Shown: positions 14,373-53,826 of the stretch, piece by piece
How positions within the stretch are numbered: the first letter of the stretch is position 1
Layout: each line of letters begins with the position of its first letter
Notes under the pieces: generated by a model
Told to the model about the DNA's origin: nothing
What the model saw: the letters and a program-made list of their open reading frames with translations, nothing else
Database searches by the model: none
From: Gammaproteobacteria bacterium
GTDB lineage: Bacteria > Pseudomonadota > Gammaproteobacteria > Steroidobacterales > PWYM01
Length of the DNA stretch: 53,826 bases
Direction: 5' to 3'
Assembly (NCBI GenBank): GCA_003567475.1
Contig: PWZL01000042.1
Span: 1-53,826, forward strand
Program-made: the position numbers and the translations under genes

Positions 14373-14383
14373 GACGGTGGCGT

Positions 14384-19170: not shown

Positions 19171-19179
19171 GGGCGCGGC

Positions 19180-20100: not shown

Positions 20101-20142
20101 GCCGCCGCCTGTAAGGCAATCTGAAACCAAAACCATCCCACA

Positions 20143-20208
20143 CACGGGCCGGCACATGCTGCCGGGTGCCCGGAGCTCAGGCTTCCGGGTTGCGGCATGG
20201 GGCCCGTG
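20143..20208 (+). promoter_or_regulatory. structured rpsB mRNA leader, likely S2 autoregulatory site
   Basis: CACGGGCC (20143-20150) pairs with GGCCCGTG (20201-20208), closing a junction that holds a perfect CCCGGA/TCCGGG hairpin at 20169-20189. A competing CCGGCA/TGCCGG hairpin occupies 20149-20165. The closing stem ends 13 nt before the ribosome site at 20222-20226. In E. coli the rpsB leader is known to mediate repression by S2; that the same holds here is inferred from position and structure. Confidence 0.5.
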
Positions 20209-20233
20209 GAGGCTGAACCCGAGGAGAAAAATC

Positions 20234-21145
20234 GTGACAGACGTATCCATGCGCCAGATGCTGGAGGCCGGCGTGCACTTCGGCCACCAGACCCGTTACT
20301 GGAATCCGAAGATGGCACCCTACATCTTCGGCGAGCGTAACAAGATCCACATCATCAATCTCGAGCGCTCGCTCCCGCTGTACCGGGACGCGATGGGCTT
20401 CGTGAAGAAACTGGCCGCCGAGGGCGGCACGTTGCTTTTCGTTGGCACCAAGCGCGCCGCGCGCGACGCGATTCGCGTCGAGGCCGAACGCTGCGGCATG
20501 CCCTTCATCAGCTACCGCTGGCTGGGTGGCATGCTGACCAACTTCAAGACCATCCGCCAGTCCATCCGCCGCCTGCAGGAACTCACCGAGATGCAGGAAA
20601 ACGGCACCTTCGAGCAGCTGACCAAGAAAGAAGTGCTGATGCTGCATCGTGAGATGGAGAAGCTCGAGCGCAGCCTCGGGGGCATCAAGGACATGAGCGC
20701 CCTGCCTGACGCGCTGTTTGTCATCGATGTCGGGCATGAGGACATTGCGTTGCGCGAGGCCGCCAAGCTCGGCATTCCCGTGGTCGCGGTGGTCGACACC
20801 AACTGCTCGCCGGATGCGGTGGATTACCCGATTCCCGGCAATGACGATGCCATGCGGGCCATCCAGCTGTACACGCGCGGAGTTTCCGATGCGGTGCTCG
20901 ATGGCCGCGCCGCCGTGCCGCAGGTGGCTGCCAGCGATGACGATTTCGTCGAGCTCGACGAGCAGGGCAAGCCGCGCAGCGAGGCCGCCCGAGCCCGGCG
21001 GCGCAAGAGTGGCGGGGATCGCAAGCCTGAGGCTGCGCCGGCTGCCGAGGCGAAGGCGCCAGAGGCCCCAGCCGCCGATGCGCAGCCTGCCGCTACTGCA
21101 TCCGCGGGCGATGCCCCGGCTGCCGAGGGTGGCGAGGCCAGCTGA
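20234..21145 (+). CDS. rpsB: 30S ribosomal protein S2
   Basis: A small-subunit protein, 303 residues. The core is unmistakable: [22 protein letters not shown], the IHIINLE block, [17 protein letters not shown] and [21 protein letters not shown]. coli S2 has about 241 residues, so there is a C-terminal extension of about 60 residues rich in Ala, Pro, Glu and Lys from about 245 onward. The start is GTG 20234: AGGAG lies 7 nt upstream, and the next in-frame ATG (20249) would place the same ribosome site too far away. Confidence 0.96.
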
Positions 21146-21155
21146 GCGTGAGCCG

Positions 21156-21227
21156 GCGGCCGTCAGGCCGCGGGCCGTCCCCCTGACCCCGACCGGGCGG
21201 TCGCACGCCCGGTCGTCTACCGTTTTT
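21156..21227 (+). terminator. rpsB-tsf attenuator: two hairpins and a T-run
   Basis: A GCGGCC/GGCCGC stem with a GTCA loop (21156-21171) is followed by a ten-pair stem CGACCGGGCG/CGCCCGGTCG with a 6-nt loop (21190-21215), then TTTTT at 21223-21227. The T-run starts 8 nt after the stem, so termination would be partial, which would lower tsf relative to rpsB. The ribosome site of tsf follows directly. Confidence 0.6.
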
Positions 21228-21243
21228 ACGAGGAACAGCAGCG

Positions 21244-22113
21244 ATGTCCATTTCCGCAGCACAAGTCAAAACACTCCGCGAGCGCACTGGCGCCGGCATG
21301 ATGGAATGCAAGAAGGCCCTGGTGGAGGCCGATGGCGATCTTGAACAGGCCGTCGAGGTTCTGCGCAAGTCCGGCCAGGCCAAGGCCGACAAGAAAGCCG
21401 GCCGGGTGGCGGCAGAGGGTCGCATCGTCGTCCTCGAGGAGGCCGGTGCCGCCGTGATTGCCGAAATCAACTGCGAAACCGATTTTGTGGCGAACGATGA
21501 CAATTTCACCGGCTTTGCCGATCTGGTCACCCGCAGCGTGCTGGCACACCGTCCGGCGGACGTGGCGGCGCTGATGGCCGTGGCCGTCGACGGCACGTCG
21601 CTGGAACAGCGGCGTACCGACCTGATCGCCAAGATCGGCGAGAACATTGCCGTGCGGCGCTTTACGGTGGTCGAGGCGGTCGGGCGCCTGGCGAGTTATG
21701 TGCACGGGTCGCGCATCGGTGTGCTGATCGATGTCGAGGGCGGCGACGACGCCCTGGCGCGGGATCTGGCGATGCACGTGGCGGCGACCAACCCGGCCTG
21801 CGTGTCGGCCGACCAGGTCGATCCCGAGGTGCTGGCCAAGGAGCGTGACATTCTGCTCGAGCAGGCCCGCCAGGAAGGCAAGCCCGAGGAGATCGTGCAG
21901 AAGATGGTCGAGGGCCGGGTGCGCAAGTACCTTGGCGAGATCACCCTGGTCGGTCAGCCCTTCGTCAAGGACCCCGATGTCAAGGTCGAGAAGCTGCTGA
22001 AGTCTGCGGGCGCGTCGGTCAAGGGCTTCGTGCGCTTCGAGGTGGGCGAGGGCATCGAGAAGAAGCAGGACAATTTCGTCGAAGAGGTCATGGCCCAGGT
22101 GCGCGGCGGCTGA
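21244..22113 (+). CDS. tsf: translation elongation factor Ts
   Basis: The guanine-nucleotide exchange factor for EF-Tu. The protein is 289 residues. The N-terminal UBA-like domain has VKTLRERTGAGMMECKKAL, and the EF-Tu-contact signature is INCETDFVANDDNF. The core repeats continue to FVRFEVGEGIEKK at the C-terminus. GAGGAA precedes ATG 21244. It follows rpsB across an attenuator-like gap, as in other Gammaproteobacteria. Confidence 0.97.
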   Translation: MSISAAQVKTLRERTGAGMMECKKALVEADGDLEQAVEVLRKSGQAKADKKAGRVAAEGRIVVLEEAGAAVIAEINCETDFVANDDNFTGFADLVTRSVLAHRPADVAALMAVAVDGTSLEQRRTDLIAKIGENIAVRRFTVVEAVGRLASYVHGSRIGVLIDVEGGDDALARDLAMHVAATNPACVSADQVDPEVLAKERDILLEQARQEGKPEEIVQKMVEGRVRKYLGEITLVGQPFVKDPDVKVEKLLKSAGASVKGFVRFEVGEGIEKKQDNFVEEVMAQVRGG

Positions 22114-22161
22114 CGCTGACCCGTCGGGATCGGCTAGAATGCTGCCAGCCGAGAGGAACCC

Positions 22162-22887
22162 ATGACCGACACCCAGCCTGTCTATCGCCGGATCCTGCTC
22201 AAGCTCAGCGGCGAGGCGCTGCTGGGTGAGATGGATTATGGTATCGACCCGGCGATGATTCGCCGGGTGGCGAGAGAAATCAGCGAAGTCCGCGCGCTTG
22301 GCGTGCAGATCGGTGTCGTCATCGGCGGCGGTAACATCTTCCGCGGCGCCGGGCTCGCCCAAGGCGGCATGGACCGCGTGACCGGTGATCACATGGGTAT
22401 GCTGGCCACGGTGATCAACTCGCTGGCCCTGCAGGATGCGCTGGAGCGGCTGGGGGTGTTCGCCCGGGTGATGTCGGCGCTGAAGATTCACGAGGTCTGC
22501 GAGGACTACATTCGCCGGCGGGCCATCCGCCACCTCGAGAAGAACCGCGTGGTGATCTTCGCCGCCGGCACCGGTAACCCCTTTTTCACCACCGACACCG
22601 CGGCGAGTCTGCGCGCCATCGAGATCGGTGCCGACGTGCTGATCAAGGCCACCAAGGTGGATGGCATCTACAGCCGTGATCCGGTGCGGTATCCCGATGC
22701 GGAGCACTATCCCTCGCTGTCCTTCGAGCGGGTGCTGCGCGAGGATCTGCAGGTCATGGACGCCACGGCCATCGTGATGTGCCGCGACAACGATCTCCCG
22801 CTGCAGGTGTTCAATCTGAACAATGAAGGCGACCTCATGCGCATGATGCGTGGTGAGCTGATCGGCAGCCAGGTCGCTAACGGATGA
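22162..22887 (+). CDS. pyrH: uridylate kinase
   Basis: Phosphorylates UMP to UDP; hexameric, of the bacterial amino-acid-kinase fold rather than the eukaryotic NMP-kinase fold. The protein is 241 residues. KLSGEAL (14-20) is the ATP-phosphate site; [23 protein letters not shown] and [13 protein letters not shown] follow in order. GAGAGGAA lies just before ATG 22162. A TAGAAT -10-like hexamer at 22135-22140 without a clear -35 may give it a separate weak promoter. Confidence 0.97.
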
Positions 22888-22930
22888 GGGTGCGCCAGGC
22901 TGTGTCCGGCGGTCCAGCGGAGAGACAGGC

Positions 22931-23488
22931 ATGATCGAAGACATCAGAAAAGACGCCGCCACACGCATGAAAAAAAGCGTGGAATCGCTGCGTAACGACC
23001 TGCGCAAGGTGCGGACCGGACGCGCCCACCCCAGCCTGCTCGAGTCGCTCAGCGTCGAGTACTACGGCTCGAGCGTGCCGCTGCGCCAGGTCGCCAACAT
23101 CAGCGTCGAGGATGCCCGCACGCTGGCGGTCGCCCCCTATGAGCGGCCCATGGTGTCGGTGGTGGAGAAAGCCATCATCGATTCCGACCTGGGCTTGACA
23201 CCGAACTCTGCGGGTATGGTGATCCGGGTGCCGCTGCCGCCGCTGACCGAGCAGCGACGTCGCGATCTCACCCGGGTCGTCCGGAATGAAGCCGAGGGGG
23301 GTCGGGTGGCCGTGCGCAACATCCGTCGGGATGCCCTGGGCGATCTCAAGGAACTGCAGAAGGAAAAGCTCATCAGTGAGGATGATGAGCGGCGGGCCCA
23401 GGAAGAGATACAGAAGCTGACCGATCGCTTCGTCGCGGAGATCGACGAAGTGCTGGCCGAGAAGGAAGCCGAGTTGATGGAGGTCTGA
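22931..23488 (+). CDS. frr: ribosome recycling factor
   Basis: Splits post-termination ribosomes together with EF-G. The protein is 185 residues, exactly the family length, with the long three-helix bundle ([21 protein letters not shown], and [17 protein letters not shown]) and the small beta domain between ([16 protein letters not shown]). The Arg pair in NIRRDA corresponds to the functionally essential region. GGAGAG precedes ATG 22931. The pyrH-frr order is near-universal in bacteria. Confidence 0.97.
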
Positions 23489-23522
23489 GCGCTTTGCGCG
23501 CCGGTCTTCAGCGGAGCGCCGG

Positions 23523-24299
23523 ATGAGCAGGGGATGCGGTGCCAGCGAGGGCGCGCTGCCTGCGCACGTCGCCATCATCATGGATGGCAACGGGCGCTGG
23601 GCCCGTGCCCGTGGCCTGCCACGCCATGCGGGGCACAGCGCAGGCGTCCGTCCGGTGCGCCAGTGCGTCGAACAGGCTGCCCGACGCGGCGTCAAGGTGC
23701 TGACTCTGTTTGCCTTCAGCAGCGAGAACTGGCGCCGGCCGCGCGAGGAGGTGTCGCGGCTGATGAGCCTGTTTCTCGAGGCGTTGGACCGGGAACTCGA
23801 CGAGTTGCATGCCAACGGGGTGGTGTTGCGGTTCATCGGTGAGCGGGAGCGTCTGGCGCCGGCGCTGCAGCAGCGTCTGGCCGCGGCCGAGATGCGCACC
23901 CGCGCGAACACCGGCCTGGTGCTGGTGGTGGCTGCCGCCTATGGCGGCCAGTGGGACATGGTGCAGACTGCGCGCACCATCGCCGAGCGGGTGGCGCGTG
24001 GCGAACTCTCGCCCGCCGCCGTGGACCAGGTGTGCTTCGAACATCACCGGACACTCGCCGGACTGCCTGGCGTCGATCTGCTCATCCGCACCGGAGGGGA
24101 GCAGCGCATCAGCAATTTCCTGCTGTGGGATCTGGCCTACGCCGAGCTGTACTTCACGCCGCGTCTCTGGCCGGCCTTCAGTACGGAGGATTTCGACGCC
24201 GCGCTCGCCGAGTTCGCCGCCCGTCGTCGCCGCTTCGGGCGCACCGACGAGCAACTGCAGGCCGACGCGCTGCCGGTCGCCACAGAGGCCAGTCGCTGA
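23523..24299 (+). CDS. uppS: undecaprenyl diphosphate synthase (cis-prenyltransferase)
   Basis: Makes the C55 lipid carrier for peptidoglycan and O-antigen. The protein is 258 residues. The catalytic Asp21 sits in IIMDGNGRWA; FAFSSENW and RTGGEQRISNFLLWDLAYAE are the other conserved blocks, the latter binding the isopentenyl diphosphate. There is no membrane segment, as expected for a peripheral enzyme. It ends 1 nt before the cdsA start. Confidence 0.96.
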   Translation: MSRGCGASEGALPAHVAIIMDGNGRWARARGLPRHAGHSAGVRPVRQCVEQAARRGVKVLTLFAFSSENWRRPREEVSRLMSLFLEALDRELDELHANGVVLRFIGERERLAPALQQRLAAAEMRTRANTGLVLVVAAAYGGQWDMVQTARTIAERVARGELSPAAVDQVCFEHHRTLAGLPGVDLLIRTGGEQRISNFLLWDLAYAELYFTPRLWPAFSTEDFDAALAEFAARRRRFGRTDEQLQADALPVATEASR

Positions 24300-24300
24300 C

Positions 24301-25104
24301 ATGCTGCGCGCGCGCGTGCTCACCGCGATCGTCCTGGTCGCGGGCCTGCTGGTGGTGCTGTTCGTCCTGCCACCGGTTGCCGCTGCGATCGCCGTGGCCG
24401 CGGCGGTGCTGGCCGGCGCCTGGGAGTGGAGCCGTTTTCTCGGTCTGGTGCGTCGCATCCCCCGGCTCGCCTACGTGGGCCTGGTGGGCCTGGCGGGCGC
24501 GCTGGCGCTGCTGACCACGGAACTGCTGGCCGACCCGCGACCGCTGTTGTGGGCGGCATTGGCCTGGTGGGCGCTGGCCTTCTTCTGGGTCCTGCGCTTT
24601 CCCCGCCCCATTGGCCCGCAGGTGGCGGCGCTCTGCGGGCTCGCCGTGCTGCTGCCCCTGTGGCTGGTGCTGGCGGTGCTGGTGGCGCGGCCCGGCGAGG
24701 GTCCGCTGTGGGTGCTGTTCCTGCTGCTGATCGTCTGGGCGGCGGACATCGGGGCCTATTTTTCGGGGCGCGCGTTCGGTCGGGTGAAGCTTGCCCCGCA
24801 GGTCAGTCCCGGCAAGACCTGGGAGGGCGTGCTGGGCGGACTGGTGGCGGCGTTGCTGGTTGCAGCGGCCGGCGCACACGCGTTGTCATTGCCGGTCGGC
24901 GGGATGCTGTTGCTCACCCCGGCGCTGGTGATGATTTCGGTGCTGGGCGACCTGACGGTGTCGATGTTCAAGCGAAACGCCGGGTTGAAGGACAGCGGTC
25001 GGCTGTTTCCGGGACACGGCGGCATTCTCGATCGCATCGACAGTCTGTCGGCCGCGGCGCCGCTGTTTCTGCTCGGTTTGGGCTGGTTGGGGGGATGGCG
25101 ATGA
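24301..25104 (+). CDS. cdsA: phosphatidate cytidylyltransferase
   Basis: Forms CDP-diacylglycerol for phospholipid synthesis in the inner membrane. The protein is 267 residues with seven to eight TM segments. The C-terminal family signature is complete: [21 protein letters not shown] followed by [16 protein letters not shown] is the second conserved block. The start lies 1 nt after the uppS stop and the stop overlaps the dxr start, so it is tightly coupled. Confidence 0.96.
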
Positions 25105-26288
25105 GCGCTGAGGGCCTGGTGATCCTGGGTGCCACGGGCAGTGTCGGTGAGAGCACGCTGGCGGTGGTGGCCGAGAACCCGGGGCGTTTTCCGCTGGTGG
25201 CGCTGACGGCCCGTAGCGATGATGCACGGCTTTTCGCGCAATGCGTGGAACATCGGCCGGCGTTTGCGGTCCTTGTGGAGGAGGCTGCTGCGGCTCGCCT
25301 GGAGGCGCGGCTGGCCGACGCGGGCCTGCCGACCCGGGTGCTCGCCGGTGTTGACGCGCTGATCGAAGTGGTCGAACTGCCGGCAGTCGGCCGGGTCATG
25401 GCAGCGATTGTCGGGGCGGCCGGCCTGCTGCCCACCCTCGCGGCAGCGCGGGCAGGCCGACAGGTGCTGCTGGCCAACAAGGAGTCGCTGGTGATGGCCG
25501 GGCACCTGCTGATGGAGGCGGTGCGCGAGGGCGGTGGCGAGCTGGTGCCGATCGACAGTGAGCACAACGCCATCTTCCAGTGTCTGCCGAATGGTGATGG
25601 GGGCGCGCAGGGTGTGCGCCGACTGATTCTCACGGCCTCGGGCGGTCCGTTTCTGGACACACCGCTCGAGCAACTGTCGCAGGTTACGCCGGACCAGGCC
25701 TGTGCCCACCCGAACTGGGTCATGGGCCGGAAAATCTCGGTGGATTCGGCGACGATGATGAACAAGGGCCTGGAAATCATCGAGGCCTGCTGGCTGTTCG
25801 ATATGCCCCCGGAGCGCGTGGACGTGATGATTCATCCGCAAAGCATCGTGCACTCGATGGTCGAGTACGAGGACGGCTCGGTGCTGGCTGAACTCGGCGC
25901 TCCAGACATGCGTACACCCATCGCCCACGCGCTGGGCTGGCCGCAGCGGATCCGTTCGGGCGCGCCGTGGCTTGATCTGGTGGGCACGGCACCGCTGGAT
26001 TTCCGGGTGGCCGATGAAGCCCGCTTCCCCTGCCTGCGTCTGGCGCGAGAGGCCGCACGCCGCGGCGGGACCCATCCGGCCGTGCTCAATGCCGCCAACG
26101 AAGAAGCCGTCGCGGCGTTCCTCGACGGTGAGGTGGCCTTCCTCGACATCGCCCGCGTGGTGGGTGCCGTGCTGGATACACTACCGGCCGAGCCGGTGAC
26201 TTCGCTCGAGCAGGTCCTCGCCGTCGACACGGCCGCCCGGGCCGAGGCGCGCGAACTCATCGCGGCCCTGCAGGGTGCCAGCGCGTGA
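25101..26288 (+). CDS. dxr: 1-deoxy-D-xylulose 5-phosphate reductoisomerase
   Basis: The second step of the MEP isoprenoid pathway (DXP to MEP, NADPH-dependent). The protein is 395 residues. [11 protein letters not shown] is the NADPH site; [20 protein letters not shown] (metal ligands) and the [19 protein letters not shown] block define the active site. ATG 25101 overlaps the cdsA stop (ATGA) and lies 7 nt after a G-rich ribosome site; ATG 25095 is a near-equal alternative. The ispD and ispF genes of the same pathway are also in the window. Confidence 0.96.
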
Positions 26289-27661
26289 GCCTCCTGATTT
26301 CGGTCTTCGCGTTCCTGCTCGCCATTGGCGTGCTCGTGGCGGTGCACGAGTACGGACATTTCTGGGTGGCCCGCCGGCTTGGGTTCAAGGTCGAACGCTT
26401 CTCCATCGGTTTCGGTCGGCCGCTGGTCAGATGGCATGGGCGTGACGCCGACCGCACCGAATACTGGCTGTCGATGATCCCGCTGGGAGGCTACGTCAAG
26501 CTGCTCGACGAACGCGAGGGACCGATCGCCCCCGAAGACCAGGGGCGCGCCTTCACGCATCGGCCGGTGCCCCACCGCATAGCCGTTCTGCTGGCCGGCG
26601 CCGGGGCGAATTTCGCCTTCGCGGTGGTGGCCTTCGGGCTGATGTTCATGGTCGGTGTCCCCGGGGTGACGCCGGTGCTCGGTCCGGTGCCCGCGGAGTC
26701 GCTGGCTGGACGCGCCGGGCTGCAGGAGCGTGAGCAGATTCTCGAGGTCGGGGGGACGCGCACGCCCACCTGGGAAAGCGTCATGCTCGCCATGTACGAC
26801 GACATGCTGGCGGACGGAGTGATCCGGCTCAGGGTGGGCGCGGATCCCGAGTCACCCTCGCGGGTGGCGGAGATTCCGGTGGCTGGCCTCGAGTCGCAGC
26901 TCACGGAGCCCGGCGCGCTGCTGCCGGGTCTCGGGCTGGAACCATGGTCGCCTTCGGTGCCCGCTGTACTCGGCGCGCTGGTGTCCGGTGGCAGCGCCGC
27001 GCGTGCCGGCCTGCGCGAGGGTGACGAGATACTCGCCGCCGACGGTGAGCCCATTGCCGACTGGAGCGCCTGGGTCGGCTTCGTGCGCGGGCGTCCGGAT
27101 CAGCGGGTCGAGGTGGAGTTCCAGCGCGCCGGCGCGCGCGAGCGGGTCACGCTGGACATCGACAGCGTAGTGGCCGACGGTCAGGTGATCGGGCGAATCG
27201 GCGCCGAGATCAACCTTGACCGGGCGCGTGGACTCGCGGAGCATCTGCGCGCGGAGCAGCGTTACGGGCCGGTCGCGGCGCTTGCGCAGGGCTGGGTGCG
27301 GACCTGGGAGATGACCGGTCTGACACTGCGGATGCTCGGGCGGATGGTGACCGGAGACGTTTCGGTGCGTAACATCAGTGGCCCGATCAGTATCGGACAG
27401 TATGCAGGCTTCAGTCTGGTGCTTGGTTTGAGTTCTTTTCTGAACTTCCTGGCCATCATCAGTATCAGCCTCGGCATCCTCAACCTGCTGCCGATCCCGA
27501 TGCTGGACGGTGGGCAGATCATCTACCAACTCATCGAGTGGGTGAAGGGCAGCCCGCTCTCGGAACGCACGCTGATGATCTGCCAGCAGCTTGGCCTGGC
27601 CACGTTGCTGGTCATCATGAGTTTTGCGTTTTACAACGACATCACGAGGCTTCTGGGTTGA
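26285..27661 (+). CDS. rseP: site-2 intramembrane zinc metalloprotease RseP
   Basis: Cleaves anti-sigma-E RseA within the membrane after DegS. The protein is 458 residues. The first TM contains the zinc site HEYGH (H21, E22, H25), and a C-terminal TM has [11 protein letters not shown] with the third ligand Asp. Two PDZ domains lie between (around 115-190 and 205-290; [15 protein letters not shown] and [16 protein letters not shown]). The start is GTG 26285 overlapping the dxr stop as GTGA, which gives the hydrophobic N-terminus expected of the family. Next to bamA, as usual. Confidence 0.95.
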
Positions 27662-27666
27662 TTCGA

Positions 27667-30069
27667 GTGAAAACACGACGCCGAAACGTTGCACTGGCTG
27701 CGGCCTGCGCGTTGGCCCTGAGCGCGCCGGTGGCGGCGTACGCCCAGCAGGGTGAGGATTTCACGGTGCGGAATTTCCGCGTCGAGGGCCTGCAGCGCAT
27801 CGCCGAGGGCACGGTCTACAACTATCTGCCGATCAACCTCGGCGATACGGTGGACGCCCGGCGGGCGCGTGAGGCGGTACGGGCGTTGTTTGCGACCGGC
27901 TTCTTTCGCGATGTCGAGCTCAGACGCGATGACGGGACGCTGATCATCGCGGTGCAGGAGCGTCCCTCGATTCAATCCTTCACCATCGAGGGCAACAAGG
28001 ACATCAAGACCGAGGATCTCATGCGCTCGCTCTCCGGGGTGGGGTTGCGCACGGGTCGCACCTTCGATCGGGCGATCCTCGATGAAGTCACCCAGTTCCT
28101 GACCGAACAGTACTTCAGTCGCGGCAAGTATGCGGTCGCTGTGGACACCACCGTCGAGGAGCTGCCTGATAATCAGGTGGCCATCGCCATCGACATCGTC
28201 GAGGGTGATCGCGCACGGATCCGTCAGATCAACATCGTAGGCAACACCACCTTCAGCGATCGCGAGCTCCGACGGCAGTTCGAACTCAACACGCCGCGGT
28301 GGGACTCCTGGTTTCGCCAGAACGACCGCTACGCCCGCGAGGCGCTGCAGGGCGATCTGGAGACGCTGCGCTCGTTCTACATGGACCGGGGCTACGCCGA
28401 CTTCGATATCGAATCGACCCAGGTGGCGATCTCCCCGGACAAAAAAGACATCTTCATCACCATCAACATTGATGAAGGCGACCGCTATACCATCTCCGAT
28501 GTGCGCCTGGCCGGGCAGCTGCCGGTCCCTGAAGAACGACTGAATGCACTGGTGCTGGTGCGACCGGGCCAGACCTTTTCGCAGCAGCTCCTGAACCAGA
28601 CCGCCGAGCTGATCGGCTTCAGCCTCGGCGCTGATGGGTACGCCTTCGCCGACATCAACCCGGTGCCGACGCTGGACCGCGAAACCCGCGAGGCGAGCGT
28701 TACCATCTACATCGAGCCGCGCAATCGGGTGTATGTCCGGCGAATCAATTTCCGCGGTACCGACCGGGTCAACGACGACGTCTTCCGGCGTGAGATGCGC
28801 CAGTTCGAGGGTGCGTATCTGTCGAACGTGCAGGTTGAACGCTCGAAGACCCGAATCCAGCGGCTGCCGTACATCGACAGCGTGGACGTCGACACCATCC
28901 CCGTGGCCGGGACGCCCGACCAGGTGGATCTGGACGTCGATATCGAGTACGGGCTGCCGGGACAATTTGGCGGAGGCCTGGGCTACTCGGCCAGCCAGCG
29001 GCTGATTCTCTCGGGCAATTTCGTACACAGCAATTTCCGCGGCACGGGGCAACGGGTCGCGGCCGAGATTCAGAGCGGGCGTTTCAGCGACGTCTACAGC
29101 CTCTCGCACACCGATCCCTACACCAACATCGATGGCGTCAGCCGCACGATCTCGATGTCCTACCGCGACATCGTGCAGTTCGTCTCCCAGGCGTCGGATT
29201 TCTCGACCAAGCAGCTCAGTACCGGGCTGGAATACGCGTATCCGATCACCGAGTTCCAGTCGCTGCGGGTGGGACTCAACTGGCAGCGTGCCGAATTGCT
29301 GGTGGATAACTTCAGCACGGTTCAGGCGCAGAACTGGGTGCGCAACAACGGCAGGCCCTTCGAGACGCCACTGAACGAGCAGCGCTCCGTGCTCGGCACC
29401 AAATTCGACGCCTACGAACTGGTGGCCGGCTGGGTGTTCGACAGCCGCAACCGGGCGTTGTTTGCCGACCGGGGCGCACGCCATCGGGTGAGCCTGGGGT
29501 ATACCGTACCTGGCAGTGACGTCGAATACTTCTCGCTGAACTATGCCGGAACCCAATACGTCCGTCCCTGGCGCAATCTGACGCTGCGGTTCAACCTGGA
29601 TCTCGGTTATGCCGAGGCGTTGGGCGACACGACCGCCATTCCGCCGTTCCGGAATTTCTTCGCGGGCGGGCCCGGCAGTATTCGCGGCTTCCGCGAGAGC
29701 CGCCTCGGACCGATCGACAGTTTCGGCAATCCCTACGGCGGCAATCTGCTCGTCGCCGGGCAGGCGGAGGTGGTGCTGCCGATACCCCAGGCCTGGCGTA
29801 ACCGTGCCCGTTTCGTGCTGTTCTACGACATCGGTAACGTGTTCTCGACCGGCGGTGTCGAGTTCTTCGACCAGCTCGGTGACCCGATAGAATATCGATT
29901 TGAATTCAACGACCTGCGTCAATCCGTGGGGGTCGGCGCAGAGTGGCTGGCCCCGCTTGGCATCTTCCGGTTCAGTTATGGTATTCCGCTCAACGCCGCT
30001 GAAGGCGATGACCGGCGGTTCCCTGATCAGACCGAGCGTTTCCAATTCACCATCGGCTCGGCATTTTGA
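27667..30069 (+). CDS. bamA: outer membrane protein assembly factor BamA
   Basis: The essential Omp85 insertase of the BAM complex. The protein is 800 residues. The signal peptide ends at about AYA-26. Five POTRA domains run to about 425 (first: FTVRNFRVEGLQRIAEGTVYN). The 16-strand barrel follows, with the lid-lock IRGFRESRLGP, and the chain ends in a C-terminal Phe, the BAM targeting signal. The start is set at GTG 27667, 5 nt after the rseP stop, because it opens directly with a basic n-region (KTRRRN) and hydrophobic core; a TTG at 27658 is possible. Confidence 0.96.
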   Translation: MKTRRRNVALAAACALALSAPVAAYAQQGEDFTVRNFRVEGLQRIAEGTVYNYLPINLGDTVDARRAREAVRALFATGFFRDVELRRDDGTLIIAVQERPSIQSFTIEGNKDIKTEDLMRSLSGVGLRTGRTFDRAILDEVTQFLTEQYFSRGKYAVAVDTTVEELPDNQVAIAIDIVEGDRARIRQINIVGNTTFSDRELRRQFELNTPRWDSWFRQNDRYAREALQGDLETLRSFYMDRGYADFDIESTQVAISPDKKDIFITINIDEGDRYTISDVRLAGQLPVPEERLNALVLVRPGQTFSQQLLNQTAELIGFSLGADGYAFADINPVPTLDRETREASVTIYIEPRNRVYVRRINFRGTDRVNDDVFRREMRQFEGAYLSNVQVERSKTRIQRLPYIDSVDVDTIPVAGTPDQVDLDVDIEYGLPGQFGGGLGYSASQRLILSGNFVHSNFRGTGQRVAAEIQSGRFSDVYSLSHTDPYTNIDGVSRTISMSYRDIVQFVSQASDFSTKQLSTGLEYAYPITEFQSLRVGLNWQRAELLVDNFSTVQAQNWVRNNGRPFETPLNEQRSVLGTKFDAYELVAGWVFDSRNRALFADRGARHRVSLGYTVPGSDVEYFSLNYAGTQYVRPWRNLTLRFNLDLGYAEALGDTTAIPPFRNFFAGGPGSIRGFRESRLGPIDSFGNPYGGNLLVAGQAEVVLPIPQAWRNRARFVLFYDIGNVFSTGGVEFFDQLGDPIEYRFEFNDLRQSVGVGAEWLAPLGIFRFSYGIPLNAAEGDDRRFPDQTERFQFTIGSAF

Positions 30070-46267: not shown

Positions 46268-47307
46268 TGCCGCCGGAGGTGCTTCCGGGCGCCTGGGCGC
46301 AGGGCGCGCCGTCGGCGAGCGCGGTGCTGCGTGCCTCGCCCGAGGATTTCGTCGTCGAGGAGTTGCCGCGGGTGCTGCCGGATGGCGAGGGCGAGCACCT
46401 CTGGCTGCACGTGCGAAAGCGCGGGCGAACCACCGCGGAGGTGGCTGGCGCGCTGGCGCGTCACTGGGGTGTGCCGGCGCGCGACGTGGGTCATGCCGGC
46501 CTGAAGGATCGTGCTGCCGTCACCACGCAGTGGCTGAGCGTTCGTCTGCCCGGCCGCCAGGCCGGTCCCCCGCCGGAACTCGACGGCGTGGAGTGGCTGG
46601 CGCTGCGCCGGCATTCTCGCAAGCTCGCCACCGGTGCCTTGCGCGGCAACCGGTTCGTGCTGCGCCTGCGCGAGGTGGCCGGGGATCGGGCGATGCTCGA
46701 GCAGCGTCTGGCACGCCTGGCCACCGAAGGCGTGCCGAACTATTTCGGGCCGCAGCGCTTCGGCAGAGACGGGGACAACCTCGCGCGTGCGTGGCGGCTG
46801 CTGGTCACAGGCGGACGGGAGCGTCATCGCCAGCTGCGCGGGCTGTTGTACTCGGCCGCGCGCAGCTGGTGCTTCAATCGGGTGCTGTTACGCCGGGTCA
46901 CTGATGGCAGCTGGAACCGGCTGTTGCCGGGCGAGCTTGCCGCCCTCGAAGGCAGCCGCAGCGTGTTTGCCGTCGGGACGCCGGATGCCGAGCTCGAGGC
47001 GCGGCTGGCGGCTTTCGACATCCACCCCTCGGGGCCGCTGCCGGGCCGCGGCGGCCAGCGGCCGACCGCGGTCTGTGCAGCGCTCGAGGACGAGGCGCTG
47101 GCGGCCTTGCGGCCGCTGATCGACGGGCTGGTGGCGGCGAAGGTGGATGCGGGCCGTCGGGCCTTGCGGCTGCGCCCGGCGGAATTCACGTGGGCATGGG
47201 AAGACGATGGCCGAACCTTGCGCCTCGCGTTCGAGCTGCCGGCGGGGGCCTACGCGACTACCGTGGTCCGCGAACTGGTGGACACTGGCGACCGAATGCT
47301 GTGCTAG
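46264..47307 (+). CDS. truD: tRNA pseudouridine(13) synthase
   Basis: Isomerises U13 in tRNA-Glu. The protein is 347 residues. FVVEELP near the N-terminus, [18 protein letters not shown] with catalytic Asp82, and [11 protein letters not shown] are the TruD signature. The C-terminus VRELVD is normal. The stop codon TAG lies inside the loop of a long inverted repeat. In most relatives surE follows directly; here a minus-strand cassette intervenes. Confidence 0.95.
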
Positions 47308-47326
47308 GAAAGCATCCGGTCGCCAG
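47285..47326. terminator. 15-pair inverted repeat across the truD stop codon
   Basis: CTGGCGACCG (47285-47294) pairs with CGGTCGCCAG (47317-47326); after one A/C mismatch ATGCT pairs with AGCAT. The 10-nt loop holds the truD TAG. There is no T-run. Its place between convergent truD and the S9 peptidase gene fits a bidirectional terminator. The rest of the gap to 47380 shows nothing further. Confidence 0.6.
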
Positions 47327-47380
47327 GCTCACCCCGGCTCCGCCGCGTCAGTCACACGCGTCGAGCGCAGTGATCGAAAT

Positions 47381-49390
47381 TCACCTCGCGATCCAGTCGC
47401 GGACCTCGCGATACCAGTGCAGCGAGTTGTTCGGCTTGAGGATCCAGTGGTTCTCGTCGGGGTAATAGACCAGCCGGGACTCGATGCCGCGGGTCTGCAG
47501 CGTCCGGAACAGCTCGAAGGCCTGCGTTACCGGGACGCGGTAGTCCAGCTGCCCGTGGATCACCAGTGCCGGCGTCGCGAAGTCGGCCGCGAAGTAATGC
47601 GGCGAGATCTGGGCGTAGAGCTCGGGGTTGTCCCAGAAATGGCCAAAGCGGTCGGCCAGCACGGCCGAGTCGCCGCCCATCTGGGTGTACATGTTGTAGA
47701 CCGGCGCGTGGATGACCAGCCGTTGGAAGGGATGCTCGCGGCCGAGCAGGATCGAGGCCAGGTAGCCCCCGTAACTGCCCCCGCCGGCCACCATCCGATC
47801 GGTGTCGATCCAGGGCTGCTCGGCGAACCAGTCGGCCGCGGCGAGGGTGTCTTCGTAGGGCGCGGTGATCCAGTCGGGGTTGATGGCATCCGCGAAATCC
47901 TGGCCGAAGCCGCTGGAACCGTGGAAATTGTGCCAGGCGGTGACATAGCCCCAGGAGGCGAAGGTCTGGGCGTTCCAGCGGAAATGGAAGCCGTCGGTGA
48001 TGGCGTTGTGCGGGCCGCCGTGGATCAGCAGGAACAGCGGCCAGGGCTCGGCGGGGTCGAAGCCGGGCGGGTAGTGCACCCACATCTGGATGTCTGCCCC
48101 GTCATGGCCGGTGTACGTGACCGACTCGTAGGTCCCGAACTCGATGTCGGCGAGCAGTTCGTCATTGAGCGTATCGAGGCGCCGGATGCCGCCGGTCGCG
48201 GTGTCGATCCGCACCAGTCGCGGCGGGTGGAGAAAGCTCTGGTGGTGAGCGACCAGCGTCCCGTCGCCGGCGATGGACAGGCCGCCGAAGCTGGTCGGGC
48301 CGGTCACTGGACGCGGGGTCTCGCCGTCGGTCGTGATGTGGTACACCCGAACGGTGCCGGCATCGTCGATCGCGCCGAAGAACCCGTCCGAGTCGGGCGT
48401 CCAGACCAGGCCGCTCGCTGAGCGGTCCCACTCGCCGGTCAGCATGCGCGTCTGGCCGCTGTCGAGCTCACGCACCATGATGTTCACCGTATCGGCGTAG
48501 AAGCCGATGATGGCCTGCCGCAGCCAGGCCAGCTGCCGGCCGTCCGGACTGAACATCGGTGAGCCATCCGGTGCAGGGTTGTCGATGGTCAGATTCTCGG
48601 CGGTGGCGCTGCCGATGTCGCCCTGGAAGACATCGAAGCGAGGCCTGGCGGGATCATCGCTGCTGTCGCTGACGAATGCGATCCGCTGGCCGTCGGGGTG
48701 GATAGCGTAGCTGCTGTCACCCGGGGCGCGCCGGGGCAGCTCGATGCCCATGGGCAGGGTCACGGGCTCGACGTCGCCGCCGACAGCCGGAATACGGAAT
48801 ACATGGGTCTGGCGGGCTTCATCCAGCCAGTGGTCCCAGTGGGCATAGGGCAGGGCATTCCAGGTTTTCGCGGACACCTTGCTGTCGCGCTCCGCCTGCA
48901 GCGCTTCCGCCATCTCTTCCCAATCCTTGTCCGGCCAGATCAGGGTGATGAAATAGAGATGGTCGCCGACCCACTTCACGGCGCTGACACCGGTCGGGAC
49001 GTCGGTCAGGCGCTCGGCTTCGCCCGGGGCATCCAGCGGCAGCAGATAGATCTGCGAGGCCTCGTCGTCGTCGCGTCGGGCGGTGAACGCAAGCGTCTGT
49101 CCGTCCGGCGAGAACACCGGGTTGCCGGCCGAGGCGCTGGCCCGGGTCAGAGGTCGCTGTACGCCGCCTTCGCTCGAGAACAGATACAGCCGGGTTTCGC
49201 TTTCGTCCGTCTCGGTGTCGTAGGTTGTCACCGGCGCGACCACGTGGCCGCCGTTTGGCGAGATCACCGGAGCACCGACCCGCTCGATCGCCCACAGGAC
49301 CTCGGCGGAGAGCGTGCGCGCTGTCTCCGCCTGCGCGCACGGGGCGGCAACGATCCAGACCGCTACAATGACCAGAAGTCTCAGCATCAT
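47381..49390 (-). CDS. exported S9-family (prolyl oligopeptidase-type) serine peptidase
   Basis: A predicted periplasmic peptidase of 669 residues. The signal peptide runs to about AQA-22 (MMLRLLVIVAVWIVAAP). A WD40-like beta-propeller domain fills about 30-400 with repeated SPDG turns. The alpha/beta-hydrolase domain has the oxyanion-region LLIHGGPH and nucleophile Ser539 in GGGSYGGY, with Asp616 (HGQLDYRVP) and His648 (DENHWI). This is the acylaminoacyl/dipeptidyl-peptidase type; the substrate is unknown. The start overlaps the stop of the BtuF-like gene by one base (TGATG), with GGAG just upstream; ATG 49387 and TTG 49393 are alternatives. Confidence 0.9.
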   Translation of the reverse strand: MMLRLLVIVAVWIVAAPCAQAETARTLSAEVLWAIERVGAPVISPNGGHVVAPVTTYDTETDESETRLYLFSSEGGVQRPLTRASASAGNPVFSPDGQTLAFTARRDDDEASQIYLLPLDAPGEAERLTDVPTGVSAVKWVGDHLYFITLIWPDKDWEEMAEALQAERDSKVSAKTWNALPYAHWDHWLDEARQTHVFRIPAVGGDVEPVTLPMGIELPRRAPGDSSYAIHPDGQRIAFVSDSSDDPARPRFDVFQGDIGSATAENLTIDNPAPDGSPMFSPDGRQLAWLRQAIIGFYADTVNIMVRELDSGQTRMLTGEWDRSASGLVWTPDSDGFFGAIDDAGTVRVYHITTDGETPRPVTGPTSFGGLSIAGDGTLVAHHQSFLHPPRLVRIDTATGGIRRLDTLNDELLADIEFGTYESVTYTGHDGADIQMWVHYPPGFDPAEPWPLFLLIHGGPHNAITDGFHFRWNAQTFASWGYVTAWHNFHGSSGFGQDFADAINPDWITAPYEDTLAAADWFAEQPWIDTDRMVAGGGSYGGYLASILLGREHPFQRLVIHAPVYNMYTQMGGDSAVLADRFGHFWDNPELYAQISPHYFAADFATPALVIHGQLDYRVPVTQAFELFRTLQTRGIESRLVYYPDENHWILKPNNSLHWYREVRDWIAR

Positions 49391-50229
49391 CAATCTCCGT
49401 GTCGGGGACAGCGCGATGTCGGCGAAACGACGCTGTCCGCGTTCCTGCCCCTGATCAGCGTGGCGAGCTGATCAGCGCCGCGGGTCAGCGCAATGATACC
49501 CGGCTGCAGGATATCGGCCGACTTGATCTCGTAAAGTCGCCCGGCGGTGACCGCGGGCAGTCCCGCCCAGCCGGGGCGCTCGGCGACCCTGCCGGGACGG
49601 AACTTTTTGCCGCACCAGGAGCCGATGATCAGCTCCGGTGCGCGCGCGGCCACCTCGTCGGCGGGTGGCAGGATCCGTCCGGCCGCGCCCGGCGCCTGGG
49701 CGAGGTCGGCGAACACGTCCTCGCCGCCGACCAGTTCGATCAGCTCGGAGACCCAGCGGATGCCGCACATCGGCGGGTCGTCCCACTCCTCGAAGTACAC
49801 CCGGGGTCGACGGGGCAGCGGGCGTGCCTGCTGTCGCAGGGCTTCGAGATGGGCTTCGACCTGGCTGGCCAGACGGTCGGCCGGCGCCGCGGCGTCGACC
49901 AGCCGACCGAGGGTGCGCACCGACGCCAGAATCCCGGCGATGCTGCGCTGATTGAAGATATGCACCTCGAGCCCCGCGCGGATCAGGGCGGCGGCCAGTT
50001 CGGCCTGCAGGTCGGAGAAGCCCAGCACCAGGTCGGGCGCCAGCGCGAGGATGGCGTCGAGTTTCGCCGTGGTGTAGGCGCTGATCCGGGGTTTCTCCCG
50101 CCGCGCCTGGGGCGGGTGTACGGTGAAACCGGAGATGCCCACGATGCGCGACTGAAGCCCCAGTCGATAGAGCGTATCCACCGTTTCGGTGCTAAGACAG
50201 ACGATCCGCCGCGGCCCATGCCCGCTCAT
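49390..50229 (-). CDS. BtuF-like substrate-binding-fold protein lacking a signal peptide
   Basis: A protein of 279 residues with the class III periplasmic-binding fold of BtuF/FecB-type proteins: RIVCLSTETVDTLYRLGL, GISGFTVHPP, ALAPDLVLGFSDLQAE, and a long central helix. It lacks any signal peptide, since MSGHGPRRIV leads directly into the first strand, so it is probably cytoplasmic. EEWDDPPMCGIRWVSE and GSWCGKKFRP carry conserved-looking Cys. Databases usually call such proteins cobalamin-binding, but that is by homology only. The ATG overlaps the CobW stop (ATGA). No permease or ATPase gene is nearby. Confidence 0.85.
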   Translation of the reverse strand: MSGHGPRRIVCLSTETVDTLYRLGLQSRIVGISGFTVHPPQARREKPRISAYTTAKLDAILALAPDLVLGFSDLQAELAAALIRAGLEVHIFNQRSIAGILASVRTLGRLVDAAAPADRLASQVEAHLEALRQQARPLPRRPRVYFEEWDDPPMCGIRWVSELIELVGGEDVFADLAQAPGAAGRILPPADEVAARAPELIIGSWCGKKFRPGRVAERPGWAGLPAVTAGRLYEIKSADILQPGIIALTRGADQLATLIRGRNADSVVSPTSRCPRHGD

Positions 50230-51155
50230 GCCAGGCAGGCCTCCAGCGCAGCGGTCAGCGCGTCGGCCTGGGCCGCGCCTGCTGGCCAGATGAGCACGAT
50301 CTCGCTGGTCGGCGGCGTGTCCCGCCAGGGTCCGGTGGCGCGTAACGAATGGTAGCGACCGACCCCCTGCAGCACGGTCTGAAGGCGTGGCGCGTCGGCC
50401 AGTTGCAGGATGCCCTTGCTGCGCAACACGCTGCTCTGGTGCTGGGCGAGCATGGCCAGCAGCGGCGCCCGCTCGAACGGACGGGAATAGCATCGCGACA
50501 GCGACTCGAAGGCCGGGACCCCGGCGGGCGGGTCCGCGGCCAGCCCCCGACTGTCCAGTCCCTCGATCAGCGCGCGGGGTATCCGCTCCTTGCGGGTCAC
50601 ATAGACCGGAGTCTCCGGCGCCTGCTGTTCCAGCCAGCGTCGAACGGTGGCAAGTTGCGCAGGCCCGGCGAGATCGCAGCGGTTGAGGATCACCAGCCAG
50701 GCATCGCGCGCCTGGCGGGCCACCAGTTCGCGCGCCTCCCGCGGCAGGCCGCCCGGGACGCTGGCGGCATCCACCAGGGTGACGACCGCGTCTATCCGGA
50801 TCTGGTGGCGGGTCCGCGAGAGGGTCAGCGTACGCAGGATATTACCCACGTCGGACAGTCCGCTGGCTTCGATCCACACCCGCTCGACCTCGGGGTGGTG
50901 TGCGCGCAGATGCATCAGCTCCGTGACCAGGTCGTCACGGATGCTGCAGCAGATGCAGCCTGATTGCAGGTGCAGGGTCTTGCCGCGGACTTCGCGGATG
51001 AGCCGCGCGTCGATGTTGAGGTCGCCGAAGTCGTTGACCAGCACGGCCGTGCGATGATCGGCGCCGTCCTGGTGCTGGAGCAGGTGGTTGAGCAGCGTGG
51101 TCTTGCCGCTGCCCAGAAAGCCGCCAACCACGCCGACCGCGAGACGGTTGTTCAT
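50226..51155 (-). CDS. COG0523/CobW-family GTPase (putative zinc metallochaperone)
   Basis: A protein of 309 residues. G1 is GFLGSGKTT (12-20); the metal-binding CxCC is C67-C69-C70 (GCICCSIRDDL); WIEASGLSDV is Walker B-like; G4 reads NRCD (158-161) instead of the usual NKxD. The C-terminal CobW domain follows from about 215. The COG0523 family delivers zinc (ZNG1, ZigA types) or cobalt. The Zur-like box just upstream favours a zinc role, but CobW-type cobalt handling is possible given the BtuF-like partner. AGGAGAG precedes ATG 51155. Confidence 0.9.
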   Translation of the reverse strand: MNNRLAVGVVGGFLGSGKTTLLNHLLQHQDGADHRTAVLVNDFGDLNIDARLIREVRGKTLHLQSGCICCSIRDDLVTELMHLRAHHPEVERVWIEASGLSDVGNILRTLTLSRTRHQIRIDAVVTLVDAASVPGGLPREARELVARQARDAWLVILNRCDLAGPAQLATVRRWLEQQAPETPVYVTRKERIPRALIEGLDSRGLAADPPAGVPAFESLSRCYSRPFERAPLLAMLAQHQSSVLRSKGILQLADAPRLQTVLQGVGRYHSLRATGPWRDTPPTSEIVLIWPAGAAQADALTAALEACLA

Positions 51156-51177
51156 CACGCTCTCCTGACCGGGCCCG

Positions 51178-51196
51178 GGCCGGCGAGTCGCCGGCC
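51178..51196 (-). terminator. hairpin in the cobW 5' leader
   Basis: GGCCGGCG, a 3-nt loop, and CGCCGGCC: eight perfect pairs, between the Zur-like box and the cobW ribosome site. There is no T-run. It could block read-through from the upstream Smr gene or insulate the cobW message. Confidence 0.45.
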
Positions 51197-51208
51197 TGTC
51201 GTGAGTCG

Positions 51209-51231
51209 CGAGTGTTACAGGATAACATTTA
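51209..51231. promoter_or_regulatory. Zur-like operator upstream of cobW
   Basis: TGTTA (51213-51217) and TAACA (51223-51227) form a palindrome with a 5-nt centre, the same spacing as the gammaproteobacterial Zur box. Extending to ATAACATTT on one side, 16 of 23 positions agree with the consensus as I recall it. It overlaps the stop codon of the Smr gene and ends 54 nt before the cobW ATG. COG0523 genes are known Zur targets in other bacteria; no clear promoter hexamers were found. Confidence 0.6.
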
Positions 51232-51762
51232 TTGTTGGCGTTGCAGCAGCACGTAAATCGCCCCGGTGCCGCCGTCGCGCGGGGGCGTGGAGGCATAGCC
51301 CAGCACGCTGTCCCAGCGGCGCAGCCAGCGGTCGACCTCGTGTTTGAGTACCGGTCCACCGGGCCCGGAGCGCATGCCCTTGCCGTGCACCACACGCACG
51401 CATTTGAGCCGGCGGCGCAGGCACTCGGCGACGAATTCGACCAGCATCTCGCGGGCGCGCGCCACCGACATGCCGTGCAGGTCGATCTCGTCCTGGACTG
51501 CGAACTCGCCCCGCCGCAGGCGCCGGAAATCCCGCCGCGACAGCCTCGGGCCGCAGTAGTTGAGCTCTTCGCCGGTCTCCAGCAGCTGCTCGAAAGGCTC
51601 CATGCGCAGACTCTCGCCGAGCAGCGAGTGATCGCCGCCGCTGCGCCGGCGGACGCGCGGCCGGCGCCTGAGCTCATGGCGCGGCTCGCCTTCGAGCCGA
51701 CGGACGTCGGCCATGGCCTCGCGAAACAGGCGCTCGTCGTCATCGTCAGGCGTGTCGTCCAT
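51229..51762 (-). CDS. Smr-domain protein, SmrA-like
   Basis: A protein of 177 residues. An N-terminal acidic then basic region (MDDTPDDDDERLFREAMADV) is followed by the Smr domain with DLHGM at about 96-100, VVHGKGM near 126-132, and GTGAIYVLLQ at the end. Smr domains are found in MutS2 and in the mRNA nuclease SmrB that acts at collided ribosomes; the SmrA/YdaL branch is less understood. The length and LFREAMADV opening fit SmrA better than SmrB. Divergent from surE; first gene of the cassette, possibly separate from the Zur-controlled part. Confidence 0.88.
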   Translation of the reverse strand: MDDTPDDDDERLFREAMADVRRLEGEPRHELRRRPRVRRRSGGDHSLLGESLRMEPFEQLLETGEELNYCGPRLSRRDFRRLRRGEFAVQDEIDLHGMSVARAREMLVEFVAECLRRRLKCVRVVHGKGMRSGPGGPVLKHEVDRWLRRWDSVLGYASTPPRDGGTGAIYVLLQRQQ

Positions 51763-51846
51763 GCCAGGCCCTCGGTCGACCCTAAGTGCTGCGCCCGTGT
51801 CCGCGCGGCGGCCGCTTGCCCGGGTGCAGGTCAAGTGACTCAGAGC

Positions 51847-51876
51847 GCGACAGCGTCGCGGCAGTTCCAGTATATT
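51847..51876 (+). promoter_or_regulatory. candidate promoter of surE
   Basis: GCGACA (4 of 6) at 51847-51852, an 18-nt spacer, and TATATT (5 of 6) at 51871-51876, ending 28 nt before the surE GTG. Because surE is cut off from truD, it needs its own promoter. Confidence 0.5.
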
Positions 51877-51904
51877 GGCGCCGCCCTTCCTGACGGACAA
51901 CCAC

Positions 51905-52657
51905 GTGAAGATTCTGGTCAGCAACGACGACGGTTACCAGGCCTACGGCATCCGTTGCCTGGCGGCAGCCATGAGCGAACTCGGTGAAGTGGTGGTGATC
52001 GCTCCGGATCGCAACCGCAGTGGCGCCAGCAATTCCCTGACCCTCGAGGTACCGATACGGGTAGAACAGGTCGACGACCGCTTGTACTACGTCAACGGTA
52101 CGCCCACAGATTGCGTCCATATCGGGATCACCGGGCTGCTGGATTTCGAGCCCGACATGGTCGTCTCCGGGATCAACAACGGCGCGAACCTGGGCGACGA
52201 CACGCTGTATTCCGGCACGGTGGCCGCCGCCATGGAAGGCCGGTTTCTAGGCCTGCCTGCGGTGGCCTTCTCGCTGGTGGGGCATCAGCCTTCGCACTTC
52301 GAGACCGCCGCCGAGCTCGCCCGCCAGCTGATCGCGCGACTGGTGGACGATCCGCTGCCCCGCGACAGCATCCTGAGCGTCAACGTGCCGGACCTGCCGC
52401 TGGATGAGATCAAAGGCTGGCAGGCCACGCGGCTGGGTTTTCGTCATCGCTCGGAGCCGGTGGTGCGCATGAACGACCCGCGGGGGCGCCCGGTTTACTG
52501 GGTTGGCCCGGCGGGCGAGGGCCAGGATGCCGGCCCCGGAACCGACTTCCACGCGGTGGCCAACGGCTTTGTGTCCGTGACCCCGCTGAAGATCGATCTG
52601 ACCCACCACACCCAGGTCCGTGAACTCGAGACCTGGCTGGGGCCTGGCGGGCCGTGA
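51905..52657 (+). CDS. surE: 5'/3'-nucleotidase SurE
   Basis: A metal-dependent nucleoside monophosphatase/exopolyphosphatase important in stationary phase. The protein is 250 residues. D8-D9 in KILVSNDDG are the metal ligands; [21 protein letters not shown] and [25 protein letters not shown] are hallmarks. The start is GTG 51905, which gives the exact family N-terminus M-K-I-L; the longer frame upstream covers the -10 element. Confidence 0.96.
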
Positions 52658-53331
52658 TGTCCCACGGGGTCAGCCCCCAGGGCATCGGGATGACCTCGGC
52701 GCGAGCGCGCGAACGGCTGGTCGCGCGTCTGAAGCAGGGCGGCATCCGCGACCCGGAAGTGCTGGAGCGCATTCGCAGCGTACCCCGGCACCTGTTCGTC
52801 GATGAGGCGCTGGCCAGCCGCGCGTACGAGGACACCGCGCTGCCCATCGGCTTCGGTCAGACGATTTCCCAGCCCTGGGTTGTCGCGGCGATGACCCAGG
52901 CCTTGATCGAAGGGCGCGATCTGCCGCTGGGTCGCGTGCTGGAAGTCGGCACCGGCTGTGGCTATCAGAGTGCGGTGCTCGCGCCTTTCGCGGAAAAAAT
53001 CATCAGTATCGAGCGCATCGGTGCACTGGCACGCCGTGCCCGGCTGCGTCTGCGGGAGCTCAAGTGCCATCATGTCTCCGTGCGCCATGCCGACGGTATG
53101 GCGGGCTGGCCCCAGCTCGCGCCCTACGACGGCATCCTCGTGGCCGCCGCCCCCGAGCGGCTGCCCGAGGCGCTGGTGGCGCAGCTGGCCGAGGGCGGAC
53201 GGTTGGTCATGCCGGTCGGTCGCGAGGGTGCTCAGCGGCTGGTCCGCGTCACCCGTCGCGACGGGCGTCTGCGTCAGGAGCGTCTCGGTAGCGTCAGTTT
53301 CGTGCCCATGCTGGAGGGTCTGGCGCCATGA
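52657..53331 (+). CDS. pcm: protein-L-isoaspartate O-methyltransferase
   Basis: Repairs isoaspartyl residues using SAM. The protein is 224 residues. VPRHLFVDEAL, the PIGFGQTISQPWVVAAMTQAL block, VLEVGTGCGYQSAVLA (SAM motif I) and GRLVMPVG are characteristic. The start is taken as ATG 52657 overlapping the surE stop by one base; GTG 52654 is possible. Coupled to the following micro-ORF by ATGA. Confidence 0.96.
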   Translation: MSHGVSPQGIGMTSARARERLVARLKQGGIRDPEVLERIRSVPRHLFVDEALASRAYEDTALPIGFGQTISQPWVVAAMTQALIEGRDLPLGRVLEVGTGCGYQSAVLAPFAEKIISIERIGALARRARLRLRELKCHHVSVRHADGMAGWPQLAPYDGILVAAAPERLPEALVAQLAEGGRLVMPVGREGAQRLVRVTRRDGRLRQERLGSVSFVPMLEGLAP

Positions 53332-53465
53332 GGGTGTTCTCGGCGCTGTACCTGCGGGGGATGCACGGGGCCGGCCATCGACACGCTGGCACGGGGTTCG
53401 ACCGCTGGGGCGTCTGGGCCGGGCTGGCGGCGCTGCTGGCGGGGTCTTTCTGGCTGCAGCGATGA
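53328..53465 (+). CDS. 45-residue single-TM micro-protein between pcm and nlpD
   Basis: A short frame opening with ATG in the pcm stop (ATGA) and closing in an ATGA overlap with the lipoprotein gene, so it is tied at both ends to translated neighbours. The product begins MRVFSALYLRGMHGAGHRH and has one hydrophobic segment at about 29-43 (VWAGLAALLAGSFWL) ending QR. I recognise no family. The exact double overlap and the hydrophobic helix argue that it is translated. It could instead merely carry ribosomes to nlpD. Confidence 0.6.
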   Translation: MRVFSALYLRGMHGAGHRHAGTGFDRWGVWAGLAALLAGSFWLQR

Positions 53466-53826
53466 GCCTGTGGGTCAGGGCGGCATTGCTGCTGTTGATC
53501 TCGGGCGTGCTGCTCACGGCCTGCGGGGGCCAGGCCACGCGCTGGGATCCCGGCCCGCGGCAGCCGGCCGCCAGCCCTGGTGGACTCTATGTGGTCCAGC
53601 GCGGGGATACGCTCTATCAGATCGCCTTCCGCCATAGGCTGGACTGGCGCGATCTCGCCCGCTGGAACGGGCTGGGCAGCGGTGAGCTGATCTATCCTGG
53701 CCAGCGGCTGCGCCTGCATCCCCCGCCCGGAGGCACGGCGCAGGCGGCACGGCGGCCACCGCCCGCCGACGAGCGACCGCAGGCCACCGCGCCGCCGCGC
53801 ACGGCCTCGGCGCCCGCCGCGAGCCC
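53462..53826 (+). CDS. nlpD: NlpD-like LysM lipoprotein, N-terminal part
   Basis: Runs off the right edge after 121 codons. The lipoprotein signal is MSLWVRAALLLLISGVLLTAC, shown here as its lipobox LTAC with acylated Cys21 followed by GGQ. A LysM peptidoglycan-binding domain spans about 42-86 (YVVQRGDTLYQIAFRHRLD, LIYPGQRLRL), then a Pro/Ala-rich linker starts. In relatives an M23 LytM domain follows and activates amidase AmiC in cell separation; that part lies outside the window. Its place after surE-pcm supports NlpD. Confidence 0.88.
   Translation, partial: MSLWVRAALLLLISGVLLTACGGQATRWDPGPRQPAASPGGLYVVQRGDTLYQIAFRHRLDWRDLARWNGLGSGELIYPGQRLRLHPPPGGTAQAARRPPPADERPQATAPPRTASAPAAS

Follow-up and report, generated by a model that had tools for sequence, protein, structure and literature searches.

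A palindrome ahead of a COG0523 GTPase gene as a probable Zur operator in a gammaproteobacterial genus

Introduction

The palindrome TGTTACAGGATAACA, which lies ahead of a cobW-like gene in the window (the whole stretch of 53,826 nucleotides that was analyzed), is very probably an operator for the Zur-like protein encoded on contig C8 of the same genome, as judged from its resemblance to zinc operators of the genus, its place and its conservation. The gene directly behind it encodes a COG0523 GTPase and is followed by the genes of a BtuF-like protein and an S9 peptidase. These three genes are likely carried on one transcript, since they overlap at their stop and start codons (Table 1), and the operon as a whole probably responds to zinc. 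The Smr-domain gene upstream falls outside the controlled unit because its stop codon abuts the box. Control of COG0523 proteins by Zur is well documented and concerns several subfamilies (PMC2770081).

Table 1. Features of the cobW cassette and its upstream region in the window.
Feature	Coordinates	Strand	Remarks
S9 peptidase gene, Dpp5-like, PF00326	47381..49390	-	TGATG overlap with the BtuF-like gene
BtuF-like PF01497 protein gene, 279 aa	49390..50229	-	ATGA overlap with cobW
cobW-like COG0523 GTPase gene, 309 aa, GCICC motif	50226..51155	-	Below the CobW, ZigA and YjiA equivalog cut-offs
Hairpin GGCCGGCGACTCGCCGGCC in the presumed cobW leader	51178..51196	-	Strong, 8-bp stem
Conserved block AATGTTATNNTGTAACAC	51212..51229	-	16/18 identical in G003; downstream sequence not alignable
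Zur-type operator candidate TGTTACAGGATAACA (minus strand TGTTATCCTGTAACA)	51213..51227	.	Position, matrix score of 19.7 bits, fit to GWWAYWNNNTWHCR
Extended -10-like sequence TGTTATCCT (TGTTATGAT in G003), presumed cobW promoter element	51219..51227	-	Inside the box; read from the sequence
Smr-domain (SmrA/SmrB-like) gene, upstream	51229..51762	-	Stop codon abuts the box

The Palindrome and Its Rarity

An earlier note on this DNA had pointed to a TGTTA-N5-TAACA palindrome with a flank typical of Zur boxes, 54 nt before cobW. Both the inverted repeat and the ATAACATTT flank were found as described, with TT coming next; the distance of 54 nt is correct for a slightly wider box, whereas 57 nt separate the palindrome proper from the cobW ATG (51155, minus strand). 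The site is intergenic and non-coding, and its other edge directly adjoins the stop codon of the smr-type gene (51229-51231, minus strand).

Within the window no other match to the palindrome with at most one mismatch occurs, 0.05 being expected from shuffles, and the perfect TGTTA-N5-TAACA form is found twice in the whole 3.06 Mb genome, at the window box and at C18:4749. The pattern GTTAYNNNRTAAC has six occurrences and its reversed control one; of the five outside the window box, two are zinc-gene promoters. Patterns with two mismatches are uninformative (26 matches versus 41 for the reversed control). Ranking of the site in the genome relied on pattern scans together with a matrix. When up to one mismatch to GTTAYANTRTAAC was allowed, six sites were recovered, four of which precede zinc genes: DUF1826-ZigA on C29, two ZnuD-like receptors on C31 (two sites) and zur on C8. 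The others are the window box and the C18 site. This second perfect palindrome, TGTTACAGCGTAACA (C18:4749-4763, 16.2 bits), is flanked by a symporter-type gene and a gene for a KatG-like peroxidase and may be a weak Zur site or the site of another regulator.

Zinc Operators of the Genus and the Order

The Zur regulon of the genus was rebuilt from the promoters of zinc genes, namely zur and its divergent ABC gene, DUF1826-ZigA and ZnuD-like receptors, which provided 12 operators (four species, three species, and five sites in three species, respectively). The receptors score 275-290 bits on the ZnuD model, below its strict cut-off of 950, and the term ZnuD-like is used loosely. The zur promoter on C8 carries TGGTATAATATAACA, which is likewise present before zur in G001 and G004, and the zur gene of G002 has TGATATACTATAACA. 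DUF1826-ZigA sites read GTTATACTATAAC or its complement in G000 (the genome of the window), G003 and G004. In G000 and G003 the first ZnuD-like receptor has the sites GTTATAGTATAAC and GTTATATTATAAC and the second GTTATACTGTTAC and GTTATATTGTTAC; the receptor of G002 has GTTATACTGTAAC. Zur genes elsewhere in the order are accompanied by sites such as TGTTATATTGTAACA and TGTTACAATATAACA, and GTTATAACGTAAC lies at the edge of a zinc cluster on contig C7 of G003, which comprises PepSY, a TonB receptor, DUF1636, an AztA-like ABC transporter and a second Zur. The half-site GTAAC of the window box recurs at the ZnuD-like gene of G002 and at the C7 cluster of G003, and its recurrence at these zinc-gene and zur sites makes it a common half of Zur-type sites in the genus and order.

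Contig C7 of G003 has a lower GC content (62%), looks horizontally acquired and also carries a COG0523 gene with a WD40-like neighbor. On C29 of G000, the COG0523 partner of DUF1826 scores 678 bits on the ZigA model, above the cut-off of 600. Behind a strong Zur box this contig carries the DUF1826-ZigA and OmpA-type genes and, farther downstream in the same orientation, another S9 peptidase gene (292-2250); the nearness of this second peptidase gene may be due to chance. The earlier note had proposed znuA as a yardstick for the ranking. The only znuA match in the genome, on C96, was dropped, this contig being small and AT-rich, with Bacteroidota-looking genes and neighbors, and probably a contamination of the assembly; the zur, DUF1826-ZigA and ZnuD-like receptor sites served instead.

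The Window Box Among Zur Sites

The matrix of 12 genus operators assigned 19.7 bits to the window box and 20.3 bits to its counterpart in G003, and placed the known operators, each scored with its own gene left out, between 16.3 and 26.3 bits; the training sites were themselves chosen by similarity to a Zur consensus, so these scores express likeness and not binding. The window box falls inside the range of the known operators, in agreement with its original assignment as a Zur-type box. A wider matrix of 18 sites, built earlier and covering other genera of the order as well, gave 20.9 (window) and 23.6 bits. Nothing scored as high in six simulated 3.06 Mb genomes; this null is optimistic, the genomes being drawn from the trinucleotide statistics of the window and devoid of AT-rich intergenic islands. 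In both species the box also matches, on the plus strand (in G003 by reading), the P. aeruginosa Zur consensus GWWAYWNNNTWHCR (PMC10393844), a loose pattern for which 0.26 matches are expected per window.

The inner bases deviate from the usual ones. The TAnTA core, which is typical of Zur sites and not obligatory, is TCCTG in the window and TGATG in its G003 counterpart, with one half intact and the other not; position 7, in the left half, is C in the window and G in G003, and the training sites have A. Similar deviations from this core are present at the C7 site of G003 and at the sites of the second ZnuD-like receptor. The partial loss of the inner bases would suit the operator of a different repressor that recognizes TGTTA-N5-TAACA-type sites, either a Fur paralogue or a local protein of the TetR, GntR or MarR type, to which the likeness to Zur would be coincidental. 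The genome encodes two more Fur-family proteins, and the neighbors of the C18 palindrome are not obvious zinc genes, both of which point in the same direction. Such a repressor is nevertheless improbable given that the score lies within the range of the zinc operators of the genus, that Zur typically targets COG0523 genes such as the one behind the box (PMC2770081), and that the GTAAC half occurs at zinc genes of the genus.

The Zur-like Fur-family protein to which the box is attributed is encoded at C8:1476-1970. Among PDB chains it is most similar to the Fur-family chain 7dh7 (E 1e-35), followed by E. coli Zur 4mtd (E 1e-21); the Zur equivalog is its top NCBIfam match, but with 112 of 167 bits. 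Its AYDLL and PPTVYRAL segments align and should contain the Tyr and Arg residues that read DNA (named in PMC4219657).

Conservation and the Presumed cobW Promoter

According to the earlier note, absence of the site from orthologous cassettes would have counted against Zur. An orthologue of the GTPase, 83% identical, occurs in just one of the four congeners, G003, where the genes stand in the same order. The cassette is present in two of the five species of the genus and, in the genomes searched, G003 has the sole other orthologous one, which keeps the box; since only two species carry the cassette, conservation was assessed from this single comparison. The G003 leader is 38 nt shorter and can hardly be aligned apart from the block AATGTTATNNTGTAACAC. 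G003 retains every one of the ten A/T bases of the box, compared with 14 of the 46 A/T third codon positions of cobW (30%; P about 7e-6). When the type of base is ignored, 13 of the 15 box positions are kept, which is not remarkable (P 0.12 at a third-position identity of 69%), so what argues for conservation is the retention of the A/T bases, combined with the divergence of the surrounding sequence.

Relatives of the individual genes were also considered. Distant cobW homologues of G269, G177 and L049 (36-41%) have different neighbors and no box, and 369 sampled genomes of the class contained just two weak homologues of the GTPase, without box or cassette. BtuF-like relatives in the order (50-63%) are found beside purC/YihY-type genes (by eye), with neither cobW nor box. 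The S9 orthologues of G001 and G002 (63-71%) have no adjacent cobW, the best matrix scores in these loci being 7.8, 9.9 and 14.5. The box goes with cobW, since BtuF-like and S9 relatives found without this cobW have no box. Two further COG0523 genes occur on C30 of G000 (9001-29000), with no Zur-type box within the stretch read; one of them has a WD40-like neighbor, an arrangement known from subfamily 5 of PMC2770081.

The overlap of the box with the extended -10-like sequence is the arrangement that repression by Zur needs, and Zur boxes of P. aeruginosa often overlap the -10 (PMC10393844). In G003 this sequence is situated a few tens of bases ahead of the GTG start, a plausible position for a -10. 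The resemblance of TGTTATGAT and TGTTATCCT to TGnTATAAT, along with this distance, would also be expected if the conserved block were the cobW promoter alone, that is, an extended -10 without repressor in which the symmetry is accidental. This is very unlikely: the conservation extends to the right half GTAACAC, for which a -10 has no need, a perfect palindrome with 5-bp arms and such spacing is rare in a genome of 70% GC, and no -35 partner was found. No consensus sigma-70 promoter was called ahead of cobW. The hairpin of the presumed leader is absent from G003 and occurs only once in the window. A terminator between smr and cobW was not found, and transcription running on from smr could therefore bypass the control.

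Proteins of the Cassette

The best NCBIfam match of the GTPase by bits is CobW of cobalamin synthesis (TIGR02475; 128 bits, cut-off 332), followed by ZigA (NF038288; 111 bits, cut-off 600) and the YjiA equivalog (104 bits, also under its cut-off); a structure search at E 1e-5 gave YjiA as its sole solved relative. The BtuF-like protein reaches the PF01497 domain threshold and, for BtuF itself (NF002894), 49 of 234 bits. No signal peptide is visible in it by eye, and none of its relatives in the order was seen beside BtuCD-type transporter genes. A cassette for cobalamin metabolism, with a box unrelated to zinc, is suggested by the names of both proteins and by the CobW match, though this is far under its cut-off, and is scarcely credible in view of the ZigA and YjiA matches of the GTPase, the features of the BtuF-like protein just described and a Rfam search of 46500-53826 in which no cobalamin riboswitch or other family was found.

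A Model for Zinc-Dependent Control

If the palindrome is an operator of the Zur encoded on C8, this Fur-family repressor would, in its zinc-loaded form, bind the box when zinc is sufficient, covering the -10 of the cobW promoter and keeping the operon off. As zinc falls, Zur would release the box, allowing joint production of the GTPase, the BtuF-like protein and the S9 peptidase. The GTPase would then supply a client enzyme with the little zinc available, or with another metal. More speculatively, and with rather little likelihood, the cassette could represent an operon make-up not described before, in which a YjiA/CobW-like COG0523 GTPase, a cytoplasmic BtuF-like protein binding metal or corrinoid and an exported S9 peptidase act jointly in zinc starvation, for instance by freeing metal from peptides or corrinoids and delivering it.

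For the genus, the analysis yields a small Zur regulon, reconstructed from zur, DUF1826-ZigA and the ZnuD-like receptors, together with one more operon that Zur likely controls. It would place an S9 peptidase and a BtuF-like protein without signal peptide in the response to zinc limitation, which provides a testable expression condition for both.

Comparison With Known Systems

The BtuF-like protein and the S9 peptidase had both been put forward as gene types with an unusual link to zinc. For the former this does not hold, as a zinc connection was known before for the BtuF-type binding proteins PA2913 of P. aeruginosa and PFL_0644, the latter having a predicted Zur box (PMC10393844); for the S9 peptidase it stands, a limited literature search having returned no relevant precedent of such peptidases under Zur. 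COG0523 proteins under Zur being known as well, the peptidase is the less usual passenger of the operon. With PA2913 and PFL_0644 the cassette shares a BtuF-type binding protein and the context of zinc limitation; those proteins act with an ABC transporter, whereas the cassette includes no transporter gene and its BtuF-like protein has no signal peptide by eye.

Compared with the gammaproteobacterial Zur box (GAAATGTTATA-N-TATAACATTTC, PMC4219657; GWWAYWNNNTWHCR in P. aeruginosa, PMC10393844), the window box has the same spacing and outer arms and fits the Pseudomonas consensus, but one of its halves is without the inner A (C or G at position 7). As in the Zur-regulated COG0523 systems (ZigA/YciC, subfamily 1 and others; PMC2770081), a GCxCC GTPase is encoded directly behind a Zur-type box. 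The GTPase described here differs from those in being short and YjiA/CobW-like, in failing the ZigA cut-off and in its presence in two of five species of the genus, and it is encoded with a BtuF-like protein and an S9 peptidase instead of DUF1826.
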